Source: a virus. From it: a stretch of DNA of 34,308 nt. The notes under the pieces were generated by a model that did not search any database, was not told the DNA's origin, and saw only the letters and a program-made list of their open reading frames with translations. The number at the start of each line of letters is the position of its first letter. Positions within the stretch are counted from its first letter, which is position 1. Below, one piece after another: positions 3,288-34,308 of the stretch. A program made the position numbers and the translations under genes. The stretch spans positions 1 to 34,308 of the IMG/VR virus record IMGVR_UViG_3300034072_001334; one strand, written 5' to 3'.

Positions 3288-6200
3288 TCACCACAGCCTC
3301 CACTTACACTTCACGCCCGTCATCGAAAAATTATAGTAATTTCCCGACAGTTGGCGGGTGTAATAGTCACCCTGGTTGATCATGCCAGTGTCCGAGTTGC
3401 CTTTGCGCGAATAGACCGCAAGCGTCACGTTGCCCGTGGACGTATCGAGGTCGAGATCGTCGAAGATCGTCGTGATGTCGGCCGTGAAATTCTGTGCGCC
3501 ATAGACACTCAACATGTTGCCGGTCCACAAGCGCTGGGCGATCGTCTGGCCATTCTTGGTCAACGCGATCAACATCCCACCATCATTCAAGTAATCGATA
3601 TAATATGGACGGCCGCTCTGCGTCATGGTCTGGCGACCAGATGTGTATGTGAAGCCAATCTGTCCCTGCAACTGATACTCACCATTGGCGATCGTCGTGC
3701 CGAGATCGACGGCATACATCAGCCTGGCGTCGCTCGCGGTGGCCGACGCAGGGCCAATTTTCCTGACGAAGCGGCTCAAATCCAACGCTTCTGGGTTGAT
3801 GGTGCCACCGATCATCGCGTCGCCGCTGATGCGAACATCGCCCTCGATATCGACACCGCCACCGCCGTTCGAATCCGCCACGACACGCAGTTTCGCGCGA
3901 CCGTCACCGCCAACCGCTTCGACCTGCCAGAACGCGGTCGTCCGCCCCTGGAGGTTTGAGACGGCCCCCATCGTTTGCGAGACATTCGCTTCGGCAGCCT
4001 GGAGCCTGGTCGTGTGGTTGGCGATCGTGCTGTTGGCCGTCGCGATGGCGGTTTGCGTCGTGGTGATCAGCGCCTGTTGCGCGGCCTGCGTCGCCCGGCC
4101 ATTCGCGGGAGCGTATGGGCTTGGACCACTCGCCTGCTCATAAGTCTCGCGGAACATCGGCCGCGCCATCCACGCGTAGCTATCTGGCTGTCCTCCTGCG
4201 GTGCCATCCTTGGCGAAAATCAGGAAACAAGTTGCCGCGTTCGACGGCGACTTGACCTTGTTCCAGCAGCGCAACCAGTTGGAGATCGTGGGACCACCGG
4301 ATTTCTGTGCGTTGTTTCCGTTGCTGTAATCGTTGCGAAGGAAATTGTTGTTGGCGTCATACCAATCGACCCGGAGGTAGGTGTTGCAACGATGCGCGGC
4401 CAGGAACGCGCTGAATTCATACCAAACGCCGGGAAGAACGGTGATCCGTTTGGGCGCCATCTGCGAGACGCGATCCGCCGCACTGCTGGCCTGTCGGATG
4501 CCCAAGACATGTTCTTCCATGGGGCGCCAAGAATCGCCCGCGAGATCGCGTCCGAACGAGAAATCCGCATTGCCGCTGGGCGACCAGAATTCCCAATCGC
4601 CCTGACCGACTTCAAACGAACTTTCCGCCAGGAGGTTACCACCACCGGTGCTGTAGGTCGCCGCCAAAGTGGCCTGGGTCGTCGCCGTGGATGCTGCACT
4701 CGATGCCGTCGCGGCCGATCCTGCCGCCGCCGATGCGCTCGACGATGCCTCGCCAGCCCGGATATTCGCGGTATTGGCACTGTTCGATGCAGACGTGGCC
4801 GATTGACCGGCCTCCCCCGCCTTGGTCGATGCCGTCGAAGCGCTCGAAGCGGCAGCGCTTGCACTACCTGCCGCCGAATTGCTCTCGGTGATATCCTCGA
4901 TCCGTAGTCCGACGACGCGCGCATCATGCACCGAACCAGGCTGGCCGCTGTCGTTGTTGGATTGGATAAATGGCTTAAATCGAAGGATCGTCGCGGCAAT
5001 GGCCAGATTGTATTCGAAATAGGTCCAGGTCGTGACACCGGCCGCGCAAGCAGCGCTCATCGGATAGGTGAATGACCCGTTGGCCAATTGTCCTTGGACG
5101 CCGACCCTGACGGCATAGGCGGATGACGAGCCGCCGCGCGCGTAACCCGACACCCGGAAAACCCGTGCTGTATTCATTGGAAGCTGGATGAAGTCAGCGC
5201 CTTCGGTGGCATCGCGCGCTCGACTGCGCAGTTCCTTGGTCGTGCCGAGGGAGGAGTTGGCGTAGCTGGTGACTGACACCGAGCCGTTCCACATGCCGGT
5301 GTCGCCATCCTCGAAGGTCGGTTTGGCCACAAAATTACCAGCGGCGCGCGAGGAAGCGTAAAGCGCCTGGGTGCTGGCGACGGCAGCGCTATTGGCGGCA
5401 TTGTTCGCCTGGGTGCTGGCAGTGCTGGCGCTCGACTGTGCGGCCGATGCGCTGCCTCCCGCTGCGTTGGCCGAATTCGCGGCATTGGTGGCCTGGGTGC
5501 TGGCCGTGTTCGCGCTGTTGGCGGCATTGTTCGCGCTGGTGCTGGCCTGGCTTGCGCTGGTCGAAGCCTGCCCCGCCGAAGTCGCCGCATTCGTCGCATT
5601 TGTCTGCGCCGATGATGCGCTGCTCGCTGCCCCCGCCTGGCTCGCGGAAGCCTGTGATGCACTATTGGCGGCAGCACTCGCTGACCCTGCTGCGCCGCTG
5701 CTTTCGGTGATATCCTCAATCCGGATGAAGGCATAATCGACCGTCACGGTGGACGACGCAGCCGCCAGACGCAGCAGCGAACGGATGCTGGACGCGCCAG
5801 CCGCGATCATTGCGTTGGTGGTGGATGCCGAAACCGTGCCGGTCAGTTCGACCCACTGATTGAGCGCGGTGAAGGTGTAGGAGGAAGGGTTGGTGACGGT
5901 GCCATTGCCCATCGTGCTGCCGGTGGCATTCACGCCGATCCGGTAAAGTTGGACCTGGGCAAAAACAGAACCGGTCTGCTGGCGAACCTTCGCGGTCAAA
6001 CGATAGACGCGATCCGCCTGGAGCGGGATCATGCCGATGTTGCCAACGTCAGTCTGACCACTAGCGGTGACGCGCATCGTCCGGCCAACGTCGCTGTTGT
6101 TCACGAACGCGAAGGTCGAATTTGCGGTGATCGAATTCAGGTTCTGGGGGAGACCGCCGAAACCCTGCTGCCAGTATCGTCCATCCTGCTGAAAATCCGA

Positions 6201-9200
6201 CGGCATCAACGATGCAGCCGTCAGCTTGGCGGACACGTCACTGCTGTTAGCGGCGGTCGCCGAGTTTCCAGCGGCTGAAGATGAGCTAGACGCGCTAGAC
6301 GCACTATTAGCGGCAGACGATGCAGACGCGGCGGCTTCATTAGCGCGGGTCGTGGCAGTATTCGCGGATTGGGTCGCGCTGTTCGCACTGGTGCCCGCCT
6401 GGGTGGCGCTGGTCCCTGCCTGGCTCGCGCTCGTAGCCGCAGCCGACGCAGACGATTCAGCGGCAAGCTGGCTGGTGACATCCTCGATTTTCAGGGATGC
6501 AAGCTGGATGGTGTGAGTTTCACCAGGGTCGAGGCGCAGCAGCGGACGCAGATAAGCACCACCACCCGCGATCACATCATCGCCCGAGATGTTTAGGACG
6601 TAGTCATACCATTGGTTTCGAACCGCCAGCGTCTGCGGAACGGACGGCTGGCCAATCTGACCGAACGAACTCGACAGATAAATTCCATACAACCTGACGA
6701 CCGGAGAGGTCGCGGAAGTGGCTCGCACCGACATCGTGAGACGATACGTCCGACCGGCAGTGACGCTGACAGCGCCCACGGGTGCAATATAGCGATACGT
6801 GCTGGTGCCCGTCATTTGGGCGACGCGACCGACGCTGGCGACATCGACGAACGTAACCGCAGAGGTCAGCGCAGCCTGGGTGCCAGGGGCGCCCGTGAAA
6901 GTATGCGACCACAGGTCCGGATTACCGAAATCCGAGGGCAGCATCGACGCGGCGGTCAGGCGCGCACTGTCATATGAAGACGATGCAGATACGGCCGATG
7001 CCGCCGCCGACTGCGCGGAATTTCCAGCCTGGGTGGCCGATGTCGAAGCGTTACTAGCACTACCCGACGCCGCAGTCGCGGAATTACCTGCCTGGGTCGC
7101 TGAATTCGCGGCGTTGTTCGCGCTGGTCGAAGCAGCGTTTTTCGACGCGTTGGCGCTGCTTTCGCTGCTCGCCGCCTGGTTCGCCGACGTGCTGGCCTCG
7201 CCCGCTTTCGTCGATGCTGTATTGGCGCTCGTGGATGCCGAATTCGCGCTGGTGCCCGCCGCAGTCGCGGAGGTCGCCGCCTGGGACGCTGATGTCGAAG
7301 CCGCCGACGCGCTGTTCGCCGCACCATCGGCCGCCGCCAGGGCGGCTTCCCGCTCGGTGACATCCGTGATGCGAATTTCACCGACCCGGAAAACCAGAGA
7401 CCCCGACGCTTCAGAACTGTTTAGGCGCAGACCGGCCCGGAAAAGCTGAACATCGGCTGGAATTTTCGTGACGCCATTGATGGTGTCGAGCGAGTATTTC
7501 CGCGTCATGGTGTTGACGACGCCGGTGGTCGTGAACGTCTGCGAAGCACCGCTGGTCAAATTGGAAGCGGCTGCGCCATAGCCCGCGACCATGGTGCCAA
7601 GCGCGCTATTGAAGCTGACCGAGCCGTCCGACGCCATGATCTTGAAGGTAACCGACACCTCATAGATGCGGCCCGGTTTCGGGGCGATCACGCCCTTGGT
7701 CATGACGTTGTTGCCAGCACCGGCCCAATTCGTGATTTCCAGGGACGGCCCCATGTCGGCGTCCATCACCGCAGTCGCGGGGATATCGGTCAGGTTGATC
7801 GGGTTACCGAGGCGCTCCCTGGTCCAATGCTTCGCCCCTTCCTCGAAAGTCGCGGGCAAGATCGGTGACGACGTGTAGAGCGCCGACAGGGTGCTGTCAT
7901 AAGCACTGCTCGCCGATACCGCCGACGCAGCAGCGGAGGTCGCACTGTTTCCAGCATTCGACGCCTGGGTGGTTGCAGTCGAAGCGCTATCGGAGGCTGC
8001 GGTCGCGCTGTTCTTCGCATTGGTCGCGCTGGTTGCAGCCGTCGAGGCGCTGGATGCTGCGGCATTTTTGGAAGCGAGCGCATCACTCGCGCTGGATGCC
8101 GACTGCGTCGCCGAGGTCGATGCTTCACCCGCTTTTGTGGTCGCGGTCGTGGCACTGGTCTGCGCGGAAGACGCTGATTGGCCCGCCTCTGTCGCTTTCG
8201 TCGAAGCCGTCGAGGCAGAAATCGCGGCAGCATCAGCCTTCTGACCAGCCGTGGTGGCGCTCGTCGCGGCAGCGGTCTGCGACGATTTCGCCGCATTCTC
8301 CGACCCCTTGGCATTGGTCTCGCTGGTCGCCGCATTCGTGGCGCTGGTCGATGCTTTACCAGCCTGCGTCGTCGCGGTGGTCGCACTGGTCTGCGCAGCA
8401 GTGGCGGATTGACCGGCCTGGCCAGCGCTGGTCGAAGCCGCCGAGGCGCTCGTGGCGGCAGCATCCGCGCTGTCCTGGGAATCAGCAGCAGCAGATTGTG
8501 CGGAAACCTGTGACGCTGCGGCAGCAGCGGCAGATTTTCCTGCGTCGGTGGCCTTCGTCGAGGCGGTGGAGGCGCTCCCTGCCGCAGCCGTCGCCGAATT
8601 GCTCGCGTTGGTGGCCTGCGTTTGAGCCTGACTTTTCGCGGTTTCAGCGGCCGTCTGGGCCGCCTGGGCTGCATTCTTCGCGGTCGTCGAATTCGAGAAA
8701 GCCGCTTCGGCGTCCGTCTTGGCGGTCTGGGCTGCGGTCTTCGCGCTTTCAGCAGCGGTCTTGGCAGTCTCCGCAGCAGTCTTCGCCGAACCAGCGTTTG
8801 TGGCATGGGTCTGGGCGGTCGCCCGCGCGCTTTCGGCGGCGGTCTTGGCCGCAACCGCATCAGCTTCAGCCTGTTCCGCATCGGTCTTTGCCTGGGCTGC
8901 ATTGGTGGCGGCGGTCTGCGCGTTCGCCAGGTGCTGGGCAGCAGCATCCGCGCTGGCGGCGGCGGCGGCGGTCGAACCATAAGTCGTTTTGAGATCGGCG
9001 ATCTCGCTTTCCGCGCCATCCATCGCAGCATCGAGCGTCGCGAATTTCTGCTCCAGCGTGGTGGTCTTTGTGACCGTCTGATCGACCGTTTCCTTGACGC
9101 CTTCGAGATCGGTGGCGACATCATCGACCTTGCCGATCGCATTGGAAGCGTCAGCCGCAGCCTGGTCAGCAGCGCCCTTGGCATCGTCGGCGGTGTCCTG

Positions 9201-10784
9201 CGCGTTGCCAGCGCGCGCGGCGGTGACATCTGCAATTTTGTTCTGAAGCGCGACGTAGCGCGAGACATATGACGACCAAGTCGCGTTGAACTGCGCACGG
9301 TCGATCGGGGTCGCGGCGCTGCTATCGTTCCACGCTGGTGCCAGGCCGTTGAGATAAGCGGTCAGCCCATCAAAGGCGGCGACATAGCTGGAGACCTGGG
9401 TGGTGATCCCCAGGGCCTGAGCCTGGATTACCAGGGCGGTCTTGGTCGTCGAGGCTTCAGCATAATCGCGCTCCAGACGCTTCTTTTCCGCACGGTCGAG
9501 CCAGGCGTCTTCGCTCATTTCGTTGATCTGGCTGATCAACACTGCGCCATCAGCCTGCGCCTGTTCGGCAGCTTCCTGGGCGGCTTCGGCGGCTTGGCGC
9601 GCTGCCTGCGCATCTTCGGAAATCGCCGTCAGGGCACCGCTGACCTCGTTGGCCGAATGGACGGACCAGCAACGCGAGTGACCGATGCGGACGCTATAGA
9701 CGATCGAGGGCGAAGCGATCAGGCGCGGAGACGACAAGACCGTTCGATCGCCGCTGCTGTCGAGATAGAGATCGGACGGCGCAGAATTCGCCAGGAAACT
9801 ACCAGCGGCGAGGACGCCGTTGGTCTTGGAAATCAGATAGCCGCCATGTTCATAAAGAGCGCGCCGCAGAAGATCACCGACCGTGGTTTCATCGCTGACA
9901 TATGCGCACCAGGGCTGGTCGAACGCTGCCAGCGATGCCGTGTCGAGACCGGACGCGGGGATACCCGCCTGCTCAACCATATGCGCGGCAATGTCAGCCA
10001 GGGAGGTCGGAAAGCTCGTGCCGAACTTCGCACCCCCTACGTCGGCCGTGATCTTGCCGGTGGGTTCGGCGCCAAGCAAGAAACCGCCAGCGCCCGGAAT
10101 ATCCACCCATTCGCCAGGAGCAGGAGCAGCAGCGATGGCCTGCGCCAGCGTATTGACGCGAGCCTTCGCGGCAGGAAGCTGGAGTGCATTTTCGTAGACG
10201 GCGCGAGTGCCATCGGTCGCGCCATAGCCGTGCCACTGGTAGAACCAATATTGACCGTCATAGAGCTTGACCGGCTCGACGTTCTGGCATTCGCCTGAAG
10301 TCCAGGGCTTGCGGCGATTGCGGACACCAGCCGGACCCTCAACACCGCCCGTGCCAGCGTAAACGCCCGCTAGAAGCTCGACATCGAGATAGGCTTCCGC
10401 ACCAAGCAGAGTGACGGTCGCGATATCATCGGCGATCTCCAGTCCGCTGATCGAACCTTCGAACCACCTCCCGCCGAGACCATCCCCCTCGCCGATCCAG
10501 ATGCGACCGAGCGCACCAGACCAGGACAGCTTCGCCCACTCCGGATTTCCAATGATGGAAAAGCTGATCGACCCGTGGTCGGTGGAGACCTGGGAGAAAT
10601 TCCCGCCAGCCATGACATCGACGGTGCGCGTCGGCCATTCGGTGATGACCGGCTCCCATTCATAGCCGTCCGCCTGGGTAGCTTCGCCACCCATGGCGTC
10701 GATAGAAGTCAGTCGAAGGGTCTTGGTGCTGCGGTCGCTCGGATCGAGGACCGAGACTTCAAAATGAATATTTCTGTGGTTCAC
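3288..10784 (-). CDS. Giant J-like tail fibre / host specificity protein (2498 aa)
   Basis: GTG start at 10784, 4 nt after TAAATA. Residues 1 to about 390 form a tail-hub-like globular part. At about 430-550 is a helical domain (MSEDAWLDRAEKKRLERD) common in phage J-type proteins. Long Ala/Ser/Thr repeat shafts follow, like lambda side-tail-fibre repeats. The shafts are broken by five beta-sandwich modules starting near residues 975, 1280, 1526, 1818 and 2051, four of which close with an IxDVT/IEDIT-type strand. Each begins with an F-E/D-x-G or PSDF motif and resembles carbohydrate-binding jelly rolls. Residues about 2250-2345 resemble DUF1983 (TTAFWQVEAVGGDGRAKL). The last 150 residues are paralogous to the next gene. 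Its role is adsorption to a surface glycan or protein receptor. Confidence 0.85.
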   Translation of the reverse strand: MNHRNIHFEVSVLDPSDRSTKTLRLTSIDAMGGEATQADGYEWEPVITEWPTRTVDVMAGGNFSQVSTDHGSISFSIIGNPEWAKLSWSGALGRIWIGEGDGLGGRWFEGSISGLEIADDIATVTLLGAEAYLDVELLAGVYAGTGGVEGPAGVRNRRKPWTSGECQNVEPVKLYDGQYWFYQWHGYGATDGTRAVYENALQLPAAKARVNTLAQAIAAAPAPGEWVDIPGAGGFLLGAEPTGKITADVGGAKFGTSFPTSLADIAAHMVEQAGIPASGLDTASLAAFDQPWCAYVSDETTVGDLLRRALYEHGGYLISKTNGVLAAGSFLANSAPSDLYLDSSGDRTVLSSPRLIASPSIVYSVRIGHSRCWSVHSANEVSGALTAISEDAQAARQAAEAAQEAAEQAQADGAVLISQINEMSEDAWLDRAEKKRLERDYAEASTTKTALVIQAQALGITTQVSSYVAAFDGLTAYLNGLAPAWNDSSAATPIDRAQFNATWSSYVSRYVALQNKIADVTAARAGNAQDTADDAKGAADQAAADASNAIGKVDDVATDLEGVKETVDQTVTKTTTLEQKFATLDAAMDGAESEIADLKTTYGSTAAAAASADAAAQHLANAQTAATNAAQAKTDAEQAEADAVAAKTAAESARATAQTHATNAGSAKTAAETAKTAAESAKTAAQTAKTDAEAAFSNSTTAKNAAQAAQTAAETAKSQAQTQATNASNSATAAAGSASTASTKATDAGKSAAAAAASQVSAQSAAADSQDSADAAATSASAASTSAGQAGQSATAAQTSATTATTQAGKASTSATNAATSETNAKGSENAAKSSQTAAATSATTAGQKADAAAISASTASTKATEAGQSASSAQTSATTATTKAGEASTSATQSASSASDALASKNAAASSASTAATSATNAKNSATAASDSASTATTQASNAGNSATSAAASAVSASSAYDSTLSALYTSSPILPATFEEGAKHWTRERLGNPINLTDIPATAVMDADMGPSLEITNWAGAGNNVMTKGVIAPKPGRIYEVSVTFKIMASDGSVSFNSALGTMVAGYGAAASNLTSGASQTFTTTGVVNTMTRKYSLDTINGVTKIPADVQLFRAGLRLNSSEASGSLVFRVGEIRITDVTEREAALAAADGAANSASAASTSASQAATSATAAGTSANSASTSANTASTKAGEASTSANQAASSESSANASKNAASTSANNAANSATQAGNSATAASGSASNASTSATQAGNSAQSAAASAVSASSSYDSARLTAASMLPSDFGNPDLWSHTFTGAPGTQAALTSAVTFVDVASVGRVAQMTGTSTYRYIAPVGAVSVTAGRTYRLTMSVRATSATSPVVRLYGIYLSSSFGQIGQPSVPQTLAVRNQWYDYVLNISGDDVIAGGGAYLRPLLRLDPGETHTIQLASLKIEDVTSQLAAESSASAAATSASQAGTSATQAGTSANSATQSANTATTRANEAAASASSAANSASSASSSSSAAGNSATAANSSDVSAKLTAASLMPSDFQQDGRYWQQGFGGLPQNLNSITANSTFAFVNNSDVGRTMRVTASGQTDVGNIGMIPLQADRVYRLTAKVRQQTGSVFAQVQLYRIGVNATGSTMGNGTVTNPSSYTFTALNQWVELTGTVSASTTNAMIAAGASSIRSLLRLAAASSTVTVDYAFIRIEDITESSGAAGSASAAANSASQASASQAGAASSASSAQTNATNAATSAGQASTSASQASTSANNAANSANTASTQATNAANSANAAGGSASAAQSSASTASTQANNAANSAAVASTQALYASSRAAGNFVAKPTFEDGDTGMWNGSVSVTSYANSSLGTTKELRSRARDATEGADFIQLPMNTARVFRVSGYARGGSSSAYAVRVGVQGQLANGSFTYPMSAACAAGVTTWTYFEYNLAIAATILRFKPFIQSNNDSGQPGSVHDARVVGLRIEDITESNSAAGSASAAASSASTASTKAGEAGQSATSASNSANTANIRAGEASSSASAAAGSAATASSAASTATTQATLAATYSTGGGNLLAESSFEVGQGDWEFWSPSGNADFSFGRDLAGDSWRPMEEHVLGIRQASSAADRVSQMAPKRITVLPGVWYEFSAFLAAHRCNTYLRVDWYDANNNFLRNDYSNGNNAQKSGGPTISNWLRCWNKVKSPSNAATCFLIFAKDGTAGGQPDSYAWMARPMFRETYEQASGPSPYAPANGRATQAAQQALITTTQTAIATANSTIANHTTRLQAAEANVSQTMGAVSNLQGRTTAFWQVEAVGGDGRAKLRVVADSNGGGGVDIEGDVRISGDAMIGGTINPEALDLSRFVRKIGPASATASDARLMYAVDLGTTIANGEYQLQGQIGFTYTSGRQTMTQSGRPYYIDYLNDGGMLIALTKNGQTIAQRLWTGNMLSVYGAQNFTADITTIFDDLDLDTSTGNVTLAVYSRKGNSDTGMINQGDYYTRQLSGNYYNFSMTGVKCKWRLW

Positions 10785-10794: not shown

Positions 10795-10873
10795 GCCGGA
10801 CGGTCCTTCGCTGATGGCCGTTGACACCGTGGTCGGAATTTTCGACCAGACGATATCAGCAAAGGGGGAAGTG

Positions 10874-12193
10874 ATGTCTGAAGCGAAGCCACAGCAGAAT
10901 CAGGAACGACAGAAGGCGCGCAATGGCGACGTGTCAGTCGATGATGCGTTCTGGCTTACTGATCTCTATCCCGATGCAGCCGCCTTAATCGCACACGATA
11001 TTGTCGAGCTTCCGGAGGCGGTGAAGGACTGCATCGTGGTGTTAGATGGAAACATCCTTCTCTGGCCATATGATTATTCCACAGCGTCTCTCAAAGCTGT
11101 CGAGGACGTTTACCGGAGGCTCGCTGACGACAAACGCCTGATCGTTCCGGGCCAAGCTGTTCGCGAATATTATAAGCATCGCAGCCGCAAAATTGCCGCG
11201 ATTGGTCAAAAAATAGAAGGCGTCATCAGCAAGAGCAATCACCAAATCTTCGATAAGATTTCCATTCTCGAAGAAGACAAGGATTACAAAGCCGCCAGGA
11301 AGGTTGCGGTTGATATCCAGAAGAAGGGGCAGGAGATTGCCAATCGCTTCAAAGCCATTAATCATCGGCTGAAGAATGATGTGGGCGCCGACCGCGTCTC
11401 TGCCCTATATCGCGACGTTCTCAAGGATTGCATCATCGAACTACCGATGGATGCGAAGGGACGCCAGGAGTTACTGGACGATGCGAAGCGTCGTTCGCGC
11501 TTGGAGATCGCTCCAGGTTTTAAGGACGATTCCAAGGCGGATGGTGGCATCGGCGACTTGCTGATCTGGAAGACTCTTCTCTCGGTAGCGGCCGAACGTA
11601 AATGTCATGCGATCTTCGTAACTGACGAAGCCAAAAATGACTGGTGGGTTCGCTCGAACGGCGCTTATCATCCGCGTCCTGAACTTATCGAAGAATATCG
11701 GGCTCATTCAGGTGGTAAGAGCTTGCATATGATGCCGCTTTCAGGACTTCTAGCAGCATTCGAAAGCCCAACTGACGTGGTGCAACAGGCATTAGAGCTT
11801 GAACAGTCGGTCAAAACACCAGATTTCCCAAAATCCTCCTCCCATGTAGCGCCGAGCTTCCTGCTGTTCGAAAATACATACAGAAACCTCACAATGAATT
11901 TGGCTGCCATCCAGAGCGAAATCAACCAGTTAACCGCAGAGATTGGAACAATCGAGGCCGACCCGACATTGTCTCCGGACGAGAAGGAAGCGCTCCTCTC
12001 TCTTCTTCGGAATAACGTTGAACGGAAAAATGAAGAAGCCGAAGTTTGCTACAGAAAACTTGCGATCAACAGCCAGAAGATGACTCGCGGCATGTTTGCT
12101 GGCGGCAGAGACCAGGCAAATGCCTCTCTCGGTTCATGGCGCAACAAGCGTAATGGACTATGGAGACACGGCAGTAACAGCCAGGATGATTGA
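10874..12193 (+). CDS. PIN-like domain protein (PIN_8/DUF4935 type), accessory gene
   Basis: 439 residues from ATG 10874, with a strong AAAGGGGGAA ribosome site at 10861-10870. The N-terminal 260 residues fit a PIN-like nuclease: VVLDGNILLWPY (Asp58), PGQAVREYY (Glu98), GGIGDLLIWKTLL (Asp227) and FVTDEAKNDWW (Asp250) are the expected acidic residues. A long helical C-terminal region follows (about 345-400). Such proteins are predicted metal-dependent RNases and often occur among phage-defence genes. The gene faces against the tail genes, looks less GC-rich than they do, lacks the TAAATA motif, and has a TTGACA at 10821 as a possible own promoter. Its last 36 nt overlap the convergent tail gene. 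A moron giving superinfection exclusion is plausible. Confidence 0.7.
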   Translation: MSEAKPQQNQERQKARNGDVSVDDAFWLTDLYPDAAALIAHDIVELPEAVKDCIVVLDGNILLWPYDYSTASLKAVEDVYRRLADDKRLIVPGQAVREYYKHRSRKIAAIGQKIEGVISKSNHQIFDKISILEEDKDYKAARKVAVDIQKKGQEIANRFKAINHRLKNDVGADRVSALYRDVLKDCIIELPMDAKGRQELLDDAKRRSRLEIAPGFKDDSKADGGIGDLLIWKTLLSVAAERKCHAIFVTDEAKNDWWVRSNGAYHPRPELIEEYRAHSGGKSLHMMPLSGLLAAFESPTDVVQQALELEQSVKTPDFPKSSSHVAPSFLLFENTYRNLTMNLAAIQSEINQLTAEIGTIEADPTLSPDEKEALLSLLRNNVERKNEEAEVCYRKLAINSQKMTRGMFAGGRDQANASLGSWRNKRNGLWRHGSNSQDD

Positions 12194-27154: not shown

Positions 27155-27517
27155 TCAGGGCGCCACAGGCTCCATCCTGGCGATCGTGTCACGATAGGCC
27201 AGACGCTTCGGCCGCTCCTGCTCAAGCGTCCAGCGCTGCTGCCAAAGGATCAGGAGATCGGCGACTTCATCGCGCATCAGGGCGGCCAGCTTATACGCGA
27301 GATCGTTGGTGACCGGCGACTGGCCAGACAACACCTTATGGAAGCTGGCACGGTCCATCCCGATCGCCTTCGCGCCGGTTGAGACATTCAGCCCATACTC
27401 CTTGAGCAAGGTTTCGCGGATGAACTGACCAGGGTGCATATCGATCGCGGGGATGGTCTTGACGATCATGTCCTCGACCTTGTCGATCTTATACTGGCTG
27501 GTGTCGCGCTTGGTCAT
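27155..27517 (-). CDS. higA: HigA-like antitoxin (XRE family, 120 aa)
   Basis: ATG 27517 follows GGTGGAGGAA. After a 30-residue N-terminal arm the protein reads HPGQFIRETLLKEYGL, then a helix-turn-helix (STGAKAIGMDRASFHKVLSG), the HigA pattern. The C-terminal helix ends DLLILWQQRW. It should neutralise the HigB-like toxin encoded upstream and bind operators. Unusually, a terminator and two palindromes separate it from the toxin, so it may have its own promoter and run in excess. Confidence 0.8.
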   Translation of the reverse strand: MTKRDTSQYKIDKVEDMIVKTIPAIDMHPGQFIRETLLKEYGLNVSTGAKAIGMDRASFHKVLSGQSPVTNDLAYKLAALMRDEVADLLILWQQRWTLEQERPKRLAYRDTIARMEPVAP

Positions 27518-27542
27518 ATCGATATTCCTCCACCCTGCCAGA

Positions 27543-27561
27543 TGTAGGTCATTGGCCTACA
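27543..27561. promoter_or_regulatory. 19-bp palindromic operator, copy 1
   Basis: TGTAGGTCATTGGCCTACA; the arms extend outward to GATGTAGG/CCTACATC. It lies upstream of higA. Confidence 0.65.
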
Positions 27562-27577
27562 TCATGCAAATGATATT

Positions 27578-27596
27578 TGTGGGGCAACGCCCTACA
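27578..27596. promoter_or_regulatory. 19-bp palindromic operator, copy 2
   Basis: TGTGGGGCAACGCCCTACA, a slightly diverged copy 35 bp after copy 1. Confidence 0.6.
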
Positions 27597-27620
27597 AAAA
27601 AAGGGGGCCATCGGCCCCCT
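27596..27620 (-). terminator. Intrinsic terminator between higB and higA
   Basis: On the minus strand AGGGGGCC-GAT-GGCCCCCT is followed by six to seven T. It starts 9 nt after the higB stop and precedes higA. Confidence 0.85.
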
Positions 27621-27628
27621 CTTCTCCA

Positions 27629-27928
27629 TCAGTGGTAGTCTTCATAATCGAGCAAGGTGACCTCTTGCCGCTCGACCGAGACCATGAAGGTCAGGCGATA
27701 GTTGCGGGTCACCACGAGGGACCATTTGTCGGGCTGGCCGGGGGTCAATTCGTGGGCCTTCCACGATGCGACAGCGCGAAGCTGCTGCGGATTGGTCATC
27801 ACCCGGATCGCGATGATCATTTCAGAAATCTTGCGGGTTTCCAGTGCATCCAGGCCCTTCACGCTGGTCTGCTTGGGGTTTTCGACCAGCGCCTTCACGC
27901 GCTTGTCACGGACACTCACAATCTCCAT
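27629..27928 (-). CDS. higB: HigB/RelE-like toxin (99 aa)
   Basis: ATG 27928 has GGAGG at good spacing. The protein has the RelE/HigB layout: an N-terminal helix pair (RDKRVKALVENP, DALETRKISEMI), SWKAHELTPGQPDKWSLVV, then NYRLTFMV and a final VTLLDYEDYH, the usual HigB ending. The family cleaves mRNA at the ribosome. It is the first gene of the pair, as in HigBA systems. Three operator palindromes lie upstream. Confidence 0.85.
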   Translation of the reverse strand: MEIVSVRDKRVKALVENPKQTSVKGLDALETRKISEMIIAIRVMTNPQQLRAVASWKAHELTPGQPDKWSLVVTRNYRLTFMVSVERQEVTLLDYEDYH

Positions 27929-32311: not shown

Positions 32312-32776
32312 ATGATGTATCGCCCGCGCCTTTCTAGCAGTCACCTTCTTGTCATGGATGCCCTCCACCGTGCGCCACCAGCCGGGATGAACGTTGCCAG
32401 GTTGTTGGAGGAATTTCACGGCGAGATGTCGCGGTCCACGGTCAACAATGCGCTGGCCGCGTTCATGAAGGCTGGCCTGATCGTCCGGTCGAAGGTCGAG
32501 CCGTATCACTACTGGATCGCCAGCGACCTGGACGACGATCAGCGAGCATGGTTGGCCGAGGCGTCGGCGGCGTTCGAGGAAATGATCGGCGAGCCTCTCG
32601 CCCAGGTCGATCATTCGGTGGAACGTCAGGAAGCGGAAGTGGAGCCAGTGCGCGCAAAACGGTCACGCCACAGGGTCGCCCCGGAAGCCCCCGCGCCAAT
32701 ACCGCGAACCCGTTCCAAGCAACCCTCCAGGAAGGAACTGCGCGCGCAGGGTCGCCTGAAACCTTTCACGTGGTGA
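32312..32776 (+). CDS. Winged-helix DNA-binding protein (154 aa)
   Basis: ATG 32312 or 32315. Residues about 8-75 form a winged helix: LVMDALHRAPPAGMNVARLLEEF, SRSTVNNALAAFMKAGLIVRSK and a wing ending YHYWIAS. The C-terminal half is basic and disordered (RAKRSRHRV, SKQPSRKELR). It has the size and look of a phage regulator or replication accessory protein. The repeats that end at its start codon suggest autoregulation, or that it binds these repeats as an initiator. Confidence 0.65.
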   Translation: MMYRPRLSSSHLLVMDALHRAPPAGMNVARLLEEFHGEMSRSTVNNALAAFMKAGLIVRSKVEPYHYWIASDLDDDQRAWLAEASAAFEEMIGEPLAQVDHSVERQEAEVEPVRAKRSRHRVAPEAPAPIPRTRSKQPSRKELRAQGRLKPFTW

Positions 32777-33079: not shown

Positions 33080-33098
33080 GGCCTCCAGGGCGCGTGTA

Positions 33099-33176
33099 AC
33101 TACCACAACTACCACGCACTACCACAACAAACTCTAATAAAAACAATAACTTCGGTAGTGTGGTAGTTGTGGTAGT
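33099..33176. repeat. Long inverted repeat, 25/23-nt arms
   Basis: Left arm 33099-33123 (three ACTACC units) and right arm 33154-33176 are near-perfect reverse complements with one 2-nt difference, around a 30-nt AT-rich loop. Confidence 0.8.
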
Positions 33177-33351
33177 AGTTTCATAATAGAAATAGAAAAA
33201 AATAAAATACTCATCAGTGATATGAAACCACTACTTCAACTACCACACTACCACATATATGAATAAATGGCGGATTTCCGTGGTTTTCGATGAACATATT
33301 GGCGATTTCACTACCACACCAACTACCACAGCGCCACCACGAACTACCACA
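33099..33351. repeat. ACTACCACA repeat cluster in AT-rich DNA, candidate replication origin
   Basis: ACTACCAC(A/G) occurs at 33099, 33108, 33118, 33239, 33247, 33310, 33322 and 33343, and reversed at 33159 and 33168. AT-rich blocks lie at 33178-33222 and 33370-33412. No gene is seen in 33080-33442. The next gene is a VapE-like replication gene. Iterons plus an AT-rich stretch beside replication genes are the usual look of an origin. Confidence 0.65.
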
Positions 33352-33430
33352 CCGCCGATCTCGATCGAAATATTCCTGAATTTTTTACGAAAAAAAAATA
33401 GACGGATTTAATTTTCTGCGGCATATTTGC

Positions 33431-33436
33431 TAAATA
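33431..33436 (+). promoter_or_regulatory. TAAATA start-proximal motif, replication side
   Basis: TTGCTAAATAATACTGATG, 6 nt before ATG 33443. It is the only copy in the rightward replication region. Confidence 0.5.
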
Positions 33437-33442
33437 ATACTG

Positions 33443-33625
33443 ATGGCTGATGCGGAACAGATGTCATCTCTAAAGCATTGGTCATCGACTCCCGTAGAGT
33501 ATCATCCAAGAATTAGGGTTCGGCTTTCCGCATCGCCGGACCCTTTTTCTTTTTGGATGAACTACGAAGGACATGATCACAGAAATTATCTCTACCCTGG
33601 CCGCCCAACGTGCGAGCGGCGATAG
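33443..33625 (+). CDS. Possible leader ORF containing a terminator (60 aa)
   Basis: ATG 33443 lies 6 nt after TAAATA. The 60-codon frame (MADAEQMSSLKHW) overlaps the VapE-like start by 53 nt, and a terminator hairpin lies in its second half. No family is recognised. It may be a chance frame or a leader whose translation affects termination. Confidence 0.35.
   Translation: MADAEQMSSLKHWSSTPVEYHPRIRVRLSASPDPFSFWMNYEGHDHRNYLYPGRPTCERR
33515..33555 (+). terminator. Intrinsic terminator between TAAATA motif and VapE-like gene
   Basis: AGGGTTCGGC pairs with GCCGGACCCT (10 bp, one T-G pair) with a 10-nt loop, followed by TTTTCTTTTT. It ends 18 nt before ATG 33573. Confidence 0.75.
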
Positions 33626-34183
33626 CATTACCGTCACCGACATCTTCCGCCTGATCGACGATCTCGACCAGGACTTGCGCGCAGTGTGCGATTGGGCCGT
33701 GCCCGCGATCTGCACCAAGAGCGAGTGGAACCGCGCCCTGGCGCGCGAGAAGCGTAATCGGACCCTCATTGAAATCTTCGGCGCTGTGCCGACCGATGCC
33801 ATGGACTTCGTCGAGCGCTACAGCGCAGCGAAGCTGGTGACGATCTACTTCGACGGTCGGATTACCATGGTGCCGCCCGATCGCGCGGATATCGAACACG
33901 TAGAACGCTCACGCTGGGCGCGGCTTTGTCGGATTGCGGCCGAGAAGCTGAACCTGGATTATTCGCGAGTTGCGATGGACGACGCCTGTGACGAATATTT
34001 CGAGCGCGAGCAGGCCGCGCGTCGTGTGAAGGTGATGTCGGCCATCAGCCATAACCCTGCGGCCAAGTTCGACTGGCTCGCCCTGGCGCAGGCGACATGT
34101 GCCGTGGACAACCTCCACTTTGCCGCCGCCATGATGCAGCATTTCATGTGGCAGGTAAAACGCAAGGAAGCGGCCCTCCCGAT
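33573..34183 (+). pseudogene. VapE-like replication protein, interrupted by an IS256 element
   Basis: ATG 33573 with GAAGGAC upstream (MITEIISTLAAQRASGD). The 203 residues before the IS include an N-terminal domain, a helical ISHNPAAKFDWLALAQ region, and HFAAAMMQHFMWQVKRK, which resembles the stretch just before the P-loop in virulence-associated E (VapE) primase/helicase proteins. The expected GxxGxGKS would follow but is replaced by IS sequence from about 34184. The frame happens to stay open to the window end but then no longer reads as VapE. Loss of this protein would probably prevent normal phage replication. Confidence 0.65.
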
Positions 34184-34308
34184 GGGACTGTCAGGATTTC
34201 CGTGTGTGGCCGGGCATAATGGGCAACAAGGAGTCCCACTATGTCACGACGCAAAGAACCTGCCATACCGAATGAGCTTCTCGATCAGCTTTTGGCGGGC
34301 GGCGCTGC
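34184..34308 (+). mobile_element. IS256-family insertion sequence, left end
   Basis: The putative terminal repeat begins GGGACTGTCAGGATTTCCGT at 34184. A short leader and a transposase start follow. The right end, the second inverted repeat and the target duplication are outside the window, so the exact boundary is approximate. Confidence 0.7.
34241..34308 (+). CDS. IS256-family transposase, N-terminal fragment
   Basis: ATG 34241 with AAGGAG upstream. The visible residues, MSRRKEPAIPNELLDQLLAG, are the conserved opening of IS256-family DDE transposases (R-K-x-P-x-I-P-x-x-L-L-D-Q-L-L). The catalytic part lies beyond the window. Confidence 0.8.
   Translation, partial: MSRRKEPAIPNELLDQLLAGGA

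Follow-up and report, generated by a model that had tools for sequence, protein, structure and literature searches.

What is the function of a dense cluster of short repeats that lies beside a VapE-like gene, close to one end of a viral record? The record, IMGVR_UViG_3300034072_001334, is linear and 34,308 bp long, and was analysed as a whole (hereafter the window). Its genes include a terminase, a capsid protein, a lysozyme and long tail-like ORFs. The last 125 bp (34184-34308, + strand) correspond to the first ~125 bp of ISSpwi2, an insertion sequence of the IS256 family, and are 98-100% identical to copies on sphingomonad plasmids. Exact matches to this piece are also found in sphingomonad genomes. 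From these ISSpwi2 copies we infer that the host is most likely a sphingomonad. The repeat cluster occupies the region between the stop codon of a 77-aa ORF (33079) and an ATG at 33573. We consider it quite likely that this array serves a sphingomonad prophage as its replication origin, or as one of a pair of cis sites comparable to ori and crr of P4, the downstream VapE-like helicase being the most likely initiator.

The word ACTACCAC is present in 10 exact copies between 33099 and 33351, eight forward and two reverse, in agreement with the at least ten units in both orientations reported by the first-pass annotation. The first group (33099-33126, + strand) has units starting at 33099, 33108 and 33118, with spacings of 9 and 10 bp. 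At 42 bp from its last unit, two reverse iterons TGTGGTAGT are found (33159-33176, - strand), with 8-mer cores at 33160 and 33169, 9 bp apart. A second forward group (33230-33255) combines a degenerate unit, ACTACTTCA, at 33230 with exact units at 33239 and 33247. The third one (33310-33351, + strand) has exact units at 33310, 33322 and 33343. The layout can be written '> 9 > 10 > 42 < 9 < 70 > 8 > 63 > 12 > 21 >'. The array is far above chance. The 7-mer CTACCAC is found 10 times in 33099-33351 and twice in the remaining ~34 kb, with 1.2 occurrences expected for the whole window, and the top 7-mer never exceeded 4 copies in 2000 shuffles of region 33080-33442. This region has a GC content of 38.8%, compared with 59.1% for the record. 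Its description as a gene-free stretch of 363 bp mostly holds: the only ORFs reaching into it are a spurious one of 50 aa and two on the minus strand, which overlap it with their start-side ends. No exact DnaA box TTATNCACA is present in the window, one-mismatch boxes are at chance level (10 found, 10.2 expected), and no plasmid initiator family was detected in the window.

AT-rich DNA accompanies the repeats. One block (33127-33153, 78% AT) is located within the 42-bp inverted spacing. The main tract (33177-33226) is 80% AT, reaches 90% over 30 nt and is flanked by iterons on both sides. A further tract (33365-33441) is 74% AT. When all 50-mers of the record are ranked by stability, the main tract comes last and the further tract second to last, the respective 50-mers starting at 33173 and 33367. 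Two AT-rich blocks besides the loop had been noted at first reading. An inverted repeat spans 33154-33252, with arms at 33154-33185 and 33221-33252 that are built of ACTACCAC units. It had been described with 25- and 23-nt arms; the arms are in fact 32 nt long, with 91% complementarity, and the 35-nt loop is AT-rich as described (up to 90%). Folded as single-stranded DNA, this element gives a z-score of -8.8. Its Rfam matches, all to eukaryotic miRNA models and far under gathering scores, are caused by the inverted repeat and were discarded. Finally, a strong terminator-like hairpin with a U-rich tail is predicted on the + strand between the array and the helicase gene (33497-33564; fold -37.9 kcal/mol, z -6.25). 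It is absent from the pattern-scan list because its loop is too long. This hairpin may attenuate helicase expression.

The neighbouring ORF (33573-34184, + strand) encodes 204 aa. It has no Pfam or PHROG match, and the first methods used found no relative in phages, plasmids, IMG/VR or species genomes. A six-frame search of 200 Sphingomonadaceae genomes identified one convincing relative (G154:C19 / L244). This homologue covers the whole fragment at 28% identity (pairwise E 1e-15) and runs straight on into a PF05272 VapE-like domain (E 3e-15). The gene preceding it resembles a phage primase. A second VapE protein matches weakly (E 5e-5), in agreement with the VapE-like label; no further relatives were found in 385 class-level genomes. 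When the fragment was compared by profile with VapE proteins of the short form, no match was obtained, which counts against this identity. The gene itself has no recognisable domain. Because the homology extends over the whole fragment and continues into PF05272, the label assigned at first reading is probably right; it depends essentially on one homologue at 28% identity. Homology of the ORF to VapE concerns the N-terminal part only, and the helicase domain lies beyond the insertion sequence. ISSpwi2 indeed interrupts the gene just short of the expected Walker A motif, which explains why the record ends at 34,308. Because of this interruption, the copy in the record is probably defective in replication: it has probably lost autonomous replication and could hardly start it, barring an intact initiator acting in trans.

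Does the array have relatives? Searching for the repeat in related phages, as had been suggested, was unsuccessful for the word itself. A search with ACTACCACAACTACCAC in IMG/VR returned at least 119 viral stretches, and the clustered matches examined were almost all in-frame runs of threonine codons. An inverted-pair pattern returned 33 stretches, where the pairs stand alone and belong to a few gene families. With a triple direct pattern there were 82 stretches, mostly threonine-coding, other coding or simple repeats, none with the architecture of the window; the same pattern is absent from 398 Sphingomonadaceae genomes. Exact ACTACCAC was thus found in no comparable non-coding array elsewhere in the searched viral and sphingomonad sequences. 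Among the 20 best-ranked of 310 literature matches to the repeat word, no title or abstract dealt with replication origins. The first-pass statement that the repeat does not match known origin iterons is correct. One IMG/VR contig (L172, ~6679-6733) carries an unrelated-looking, iteron-like tandem array, ACTACCACAAAACTGTATACG-, with a ACTACCACA core.

The anatomy of the array, on the other hand, recurs elsewhere. We scanned without bias for 8-mers that occur five or more times in 400 bp with both orientations represented; the same scan recovers the annotated ori of P4. Mixed-orientation arrays were found at 47 of 80 IMG/VR VapE loci versus 8 of 217 other viral contigs (p ~1e-24), these control contigs having been picked by Thr-rich or inverted patterns and so not forming a random sample. 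In sphingomonads, 8 of 33 VapE loci have an array, whereas 20 control regions taken from these genomes have none (p = 0.02). If the sphingomonad loci are split into long and short forms, a division drawn after seeing the data, arrays are present at 8 of 15 long-form loci (one a degraded gene) and at none of 18 short-form loci. The short-form loci without array include that of the homologue L244, whose contig is cut off upstream. Mixed-orientation iteron arrays are therefore strongly associated with VapE genes. Their position is also regular. All 8 sphingomonad arrays lie 3' of VapE, most of them starting within ~20 bp of the stop codon, and at the viral loci the array starts at a median of 18.5 bp past the long-ORF stop, within 150 bp in 39 of 46 cases. 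The 46 non-redundant arrays use 44 different 8-mer words, none of which is ACTACCAC. Arrays of VapE-type prophages, for instance L306 with GGTAGACA and L336 with TGGTAACA, resemble that of the window in their mixed-orientation 8-mers, their inverted spacing of 42-48 bp and their AT-rich tract. They differ in that each has its own word and most begin right past the VapE stop. It had been proposed that repeats unique to one strain would refute an origin. Since nearly every phage of the family has a private word, this test is the wrong one, and a strain-unique repeat is no refutation.

Some of these arrays show features of their own. In L276 (sphingomonad G397), the 3' side of VapE contains TGTTCACC/GGTGAACA units (4 exact) and CTGTTCA (8 copies), so that an alphaproteobacterial VapE locus carries units matching the type 1 iteron word of phage P4. 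Six GGTGAACA units are also found in an IMG/VR contig (L128:6398-6497); no P4-alpha relative was found near them in the fetched stretch. The related loci L280 and L283 have a common array layout, and L280 mixes CGTTCCCC with CGTACCCC units, possibly reflecting iteron turnover in progress.

The arrays also have a common geometry. Among neighbouring units at most 13 bp apart, 162 have the same orientation and 10 are inverted, whereas at 42-48 bp 42 are inverted and 6 have the same orientation. An inverted spacing of 42-48 bp is observed in 39 of the 46 non-redundant arrays (44 words), a count that is not fully independent because the band was chosen after the gap list had been inspected and some arrays come from related phages. 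Random placement gave a mean of 7.9 such arrays, with a maximum of 19 in 2000 trials. The spacing is 43 bp in P4 ori and crr and 42 bp in the window. The full layout '> 12 > 44 < 9 < 101 > 9 >' recurs frequently. In arrays L330-L409, inverted gaps of greater length group around 90, 101 and 112 bp, which looks like steps of a helical turn; the window has 70 bp. A strict module of exact repeats was found in the window and at 14 of the 80 viral VapE loci. It is absent from the 217 other viral contigs, the 20 control regions and 100 shuffled windows. Under exact matching, it is also missing from P4 and from all 33 sphingomonad VapE loci, and is therefore specific and not sensitive.

Iteron origins next to self-loading helicases have published precedent (PMC6092414; PMC7581432). 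The closest comparison is phage P4 (NC_001609), where ori and crr are associated with the alpha primase-helicase. As in the window, P4 has short repeats in both orientations (8-bp type 1 units), AT-rich DNA, direct neighbours spaced by 9-11 bp, a distance of 43 bp between inverted groups and a site beside or near the primase-helicase gene. The word differs, since the P4 type 1 iteron is GGTGAACA and the array in the window uses ACTACCAC. A tblastn comparison of P4 alpha with the window and the VapE loci gave no match. Of the two separate sites in P4, one lies directly 3' of alpha and the other, ori, is not 3', whereas the array in the window is 5' of the helicase gene. In PICI and SaPI, which encode Rep or Pri-Rep, the gene is followed immediately on its 3' side by the origin; these elements are satellites, in contrast to the window, which is the record of a tailed phage and encodes structural genes of its own. 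The SCCmec Cch2 origin is likewise a repeat site; there, a self-loading helicase recognises it through its C-terminal domain (PMC7581432). It has only three direct repeats (AAGTG), is downstream of the gene and is not from a phage. Classical iteron plasmids and oriC share the juxtaposition of repeats and AT-rich DNA, but the window has none of the exact DnaA boxes that would be expected of DnaA-dependent systems.

The best reading of the locus is thus that of a candidate P4/PICI-type iteron origin; such origins are known and its word is new. Iterons in both orientations, an AT-rich region flanked by them and inverted groups 42 bp apart are all present. The array ends 222 bp 5' of the VapE-like ATG, and the immediate 3' position of PICI/SaPI origins is not observed. 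Judged from sequence, the array fits this type in every feature but position. The position counts against an origin, as the arrays of relatives are almost always 3'. Since P4 also has a site that is not 3', the array could be an ori-like second site, or the gene order could have been rearranged. Two further observations weigh against this reading: the short-form sphingomonad VapE loci lack arrays, and under exact matching the strict module is missing from P4 and the sphingomonad loci. The origin next to a VapE-like gene proposed by the first-pass annotation is supported by the homology of the neighbour to the N-terminus of a VapE-like helicase, by the VapE association and by the 42-48 bp spacing common to P4 ori and crr. 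Taking P4 alpha, SaPI Rep and SCCmec Cch2 as models, we would expect the initiator to bind ACTACCAC through an origin-binding domain. Its hexamers would load onto two facing iteron groups, 42 bp apart, the adjacent AT-rich tract 33177-33226 would melt, and the helicase would then unwind the DNA. Binding, melting and replication, as well as the identity of the binding protein, are what we infer from this analogy. This reading gives the candidate repeat cluster a predicted initiator and makes it testable as a phage origin.

Other readings were weighed against this one. Repeats in both orientations also occur in operators and partition sites, and the array might be a regulatory or partition site, either a multi-operator of the phage-repressor kind or a centromere-like element, with no origin function. 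It would then be bound by another protein, such as the winged-helix protein encoded nearby at 32312-32776, which has a weak MarR_2 match. The hairpin immediately ahead of the helicase gene, with its U-rich tail, indicates that the region is also a control region. Such sites leave the association with VapE, the AT-rich tracts and the P4-origin spacing unexplained, making this reading unlikely. That the array is a chance or coding repeat, left over from a threonine-rich coding sequence (ACT ACC ACA) or from the expansion of a simple repeat, is barely conceivable. Many viral contigs do contain the same 17-mer in runs of in-frame threonine codons, but the copies in the window are in both orientations and out of frame, are separated by AT-rich DNA and have no open frame across them, and the module geometry is found in none of the 217 other viral contigs.

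Alternatively, the array could be an origin served by a split or different initiator, for example the 154-aa winged-helix protein encoded upstream. The gene order (154-aa winged-helix gene, 77-aa gene, array, VapE-like gene) would then place the array 3' of its own initiator gene, as usual. The winged-helix protein faintly matches MCM_C and a replication-initiation PHROG, but these matches fall short of the curated cut-offs or are close to chance, and a solved relative was not found. In P4, SaPI and SCCmec, moreover, the helicase itself carries the origin-binding domain (PMC7581432). We regard this alternative as rather unlikely and retain the VapE-like helicase as the predicted initiator of a P4/PICI-type origin.

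The conserved spacing leads us to consider a more general proposal, to which we give an even chance of being correct: VapE/P4-type initiators would follow a geometric code in which the word is nearly free, the layout is fixed and the footprint of a double hexamer is conserved. The fixed layout would comprise direct pairs at 8-13 bp, inverted groups at 42-48 bp and often a further pair ~101 bp on. With footprint conserved and not sequence, origins would be findable by layout alone. The window would then illustrate the code with a new word, its array being shifted 5' of the helicase gene. Repeat-sequence searching fails for such origins and layout searching works, so that the rule would offer a sequence-independent route to the origins of VapE-type prophages and satellites. 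It would also allow the placement of two helicase hexamers to be tested directly. The rule may already be known to specialists of P4/SaPI replication; in the open-licence literature searched, no paper was found that states it across words. Private words suggest a way for co-resident prophages and satellites to avoid replicating each other.

Three other loci of the record deserve mention. The 2498-aa ORF at 3288-10784, rich in Ala/Ser/Thr repeats, is probably a tail fibre or tip protein. A PIN_8-domain gene (10814-12193, + strand; E 4e-40), for which PADLOC gave no match, lies inside the minus-strand tail module. At 27155-27928 (- strand), an antitoxin-like HTH gene (PHROG 'plasmid antitoxin with HTH domain', E 2e-9) has beside it a small gene that appears HigB-like by eye, without a Pfam match, and the two likely form a toxin-antitoxin pair.
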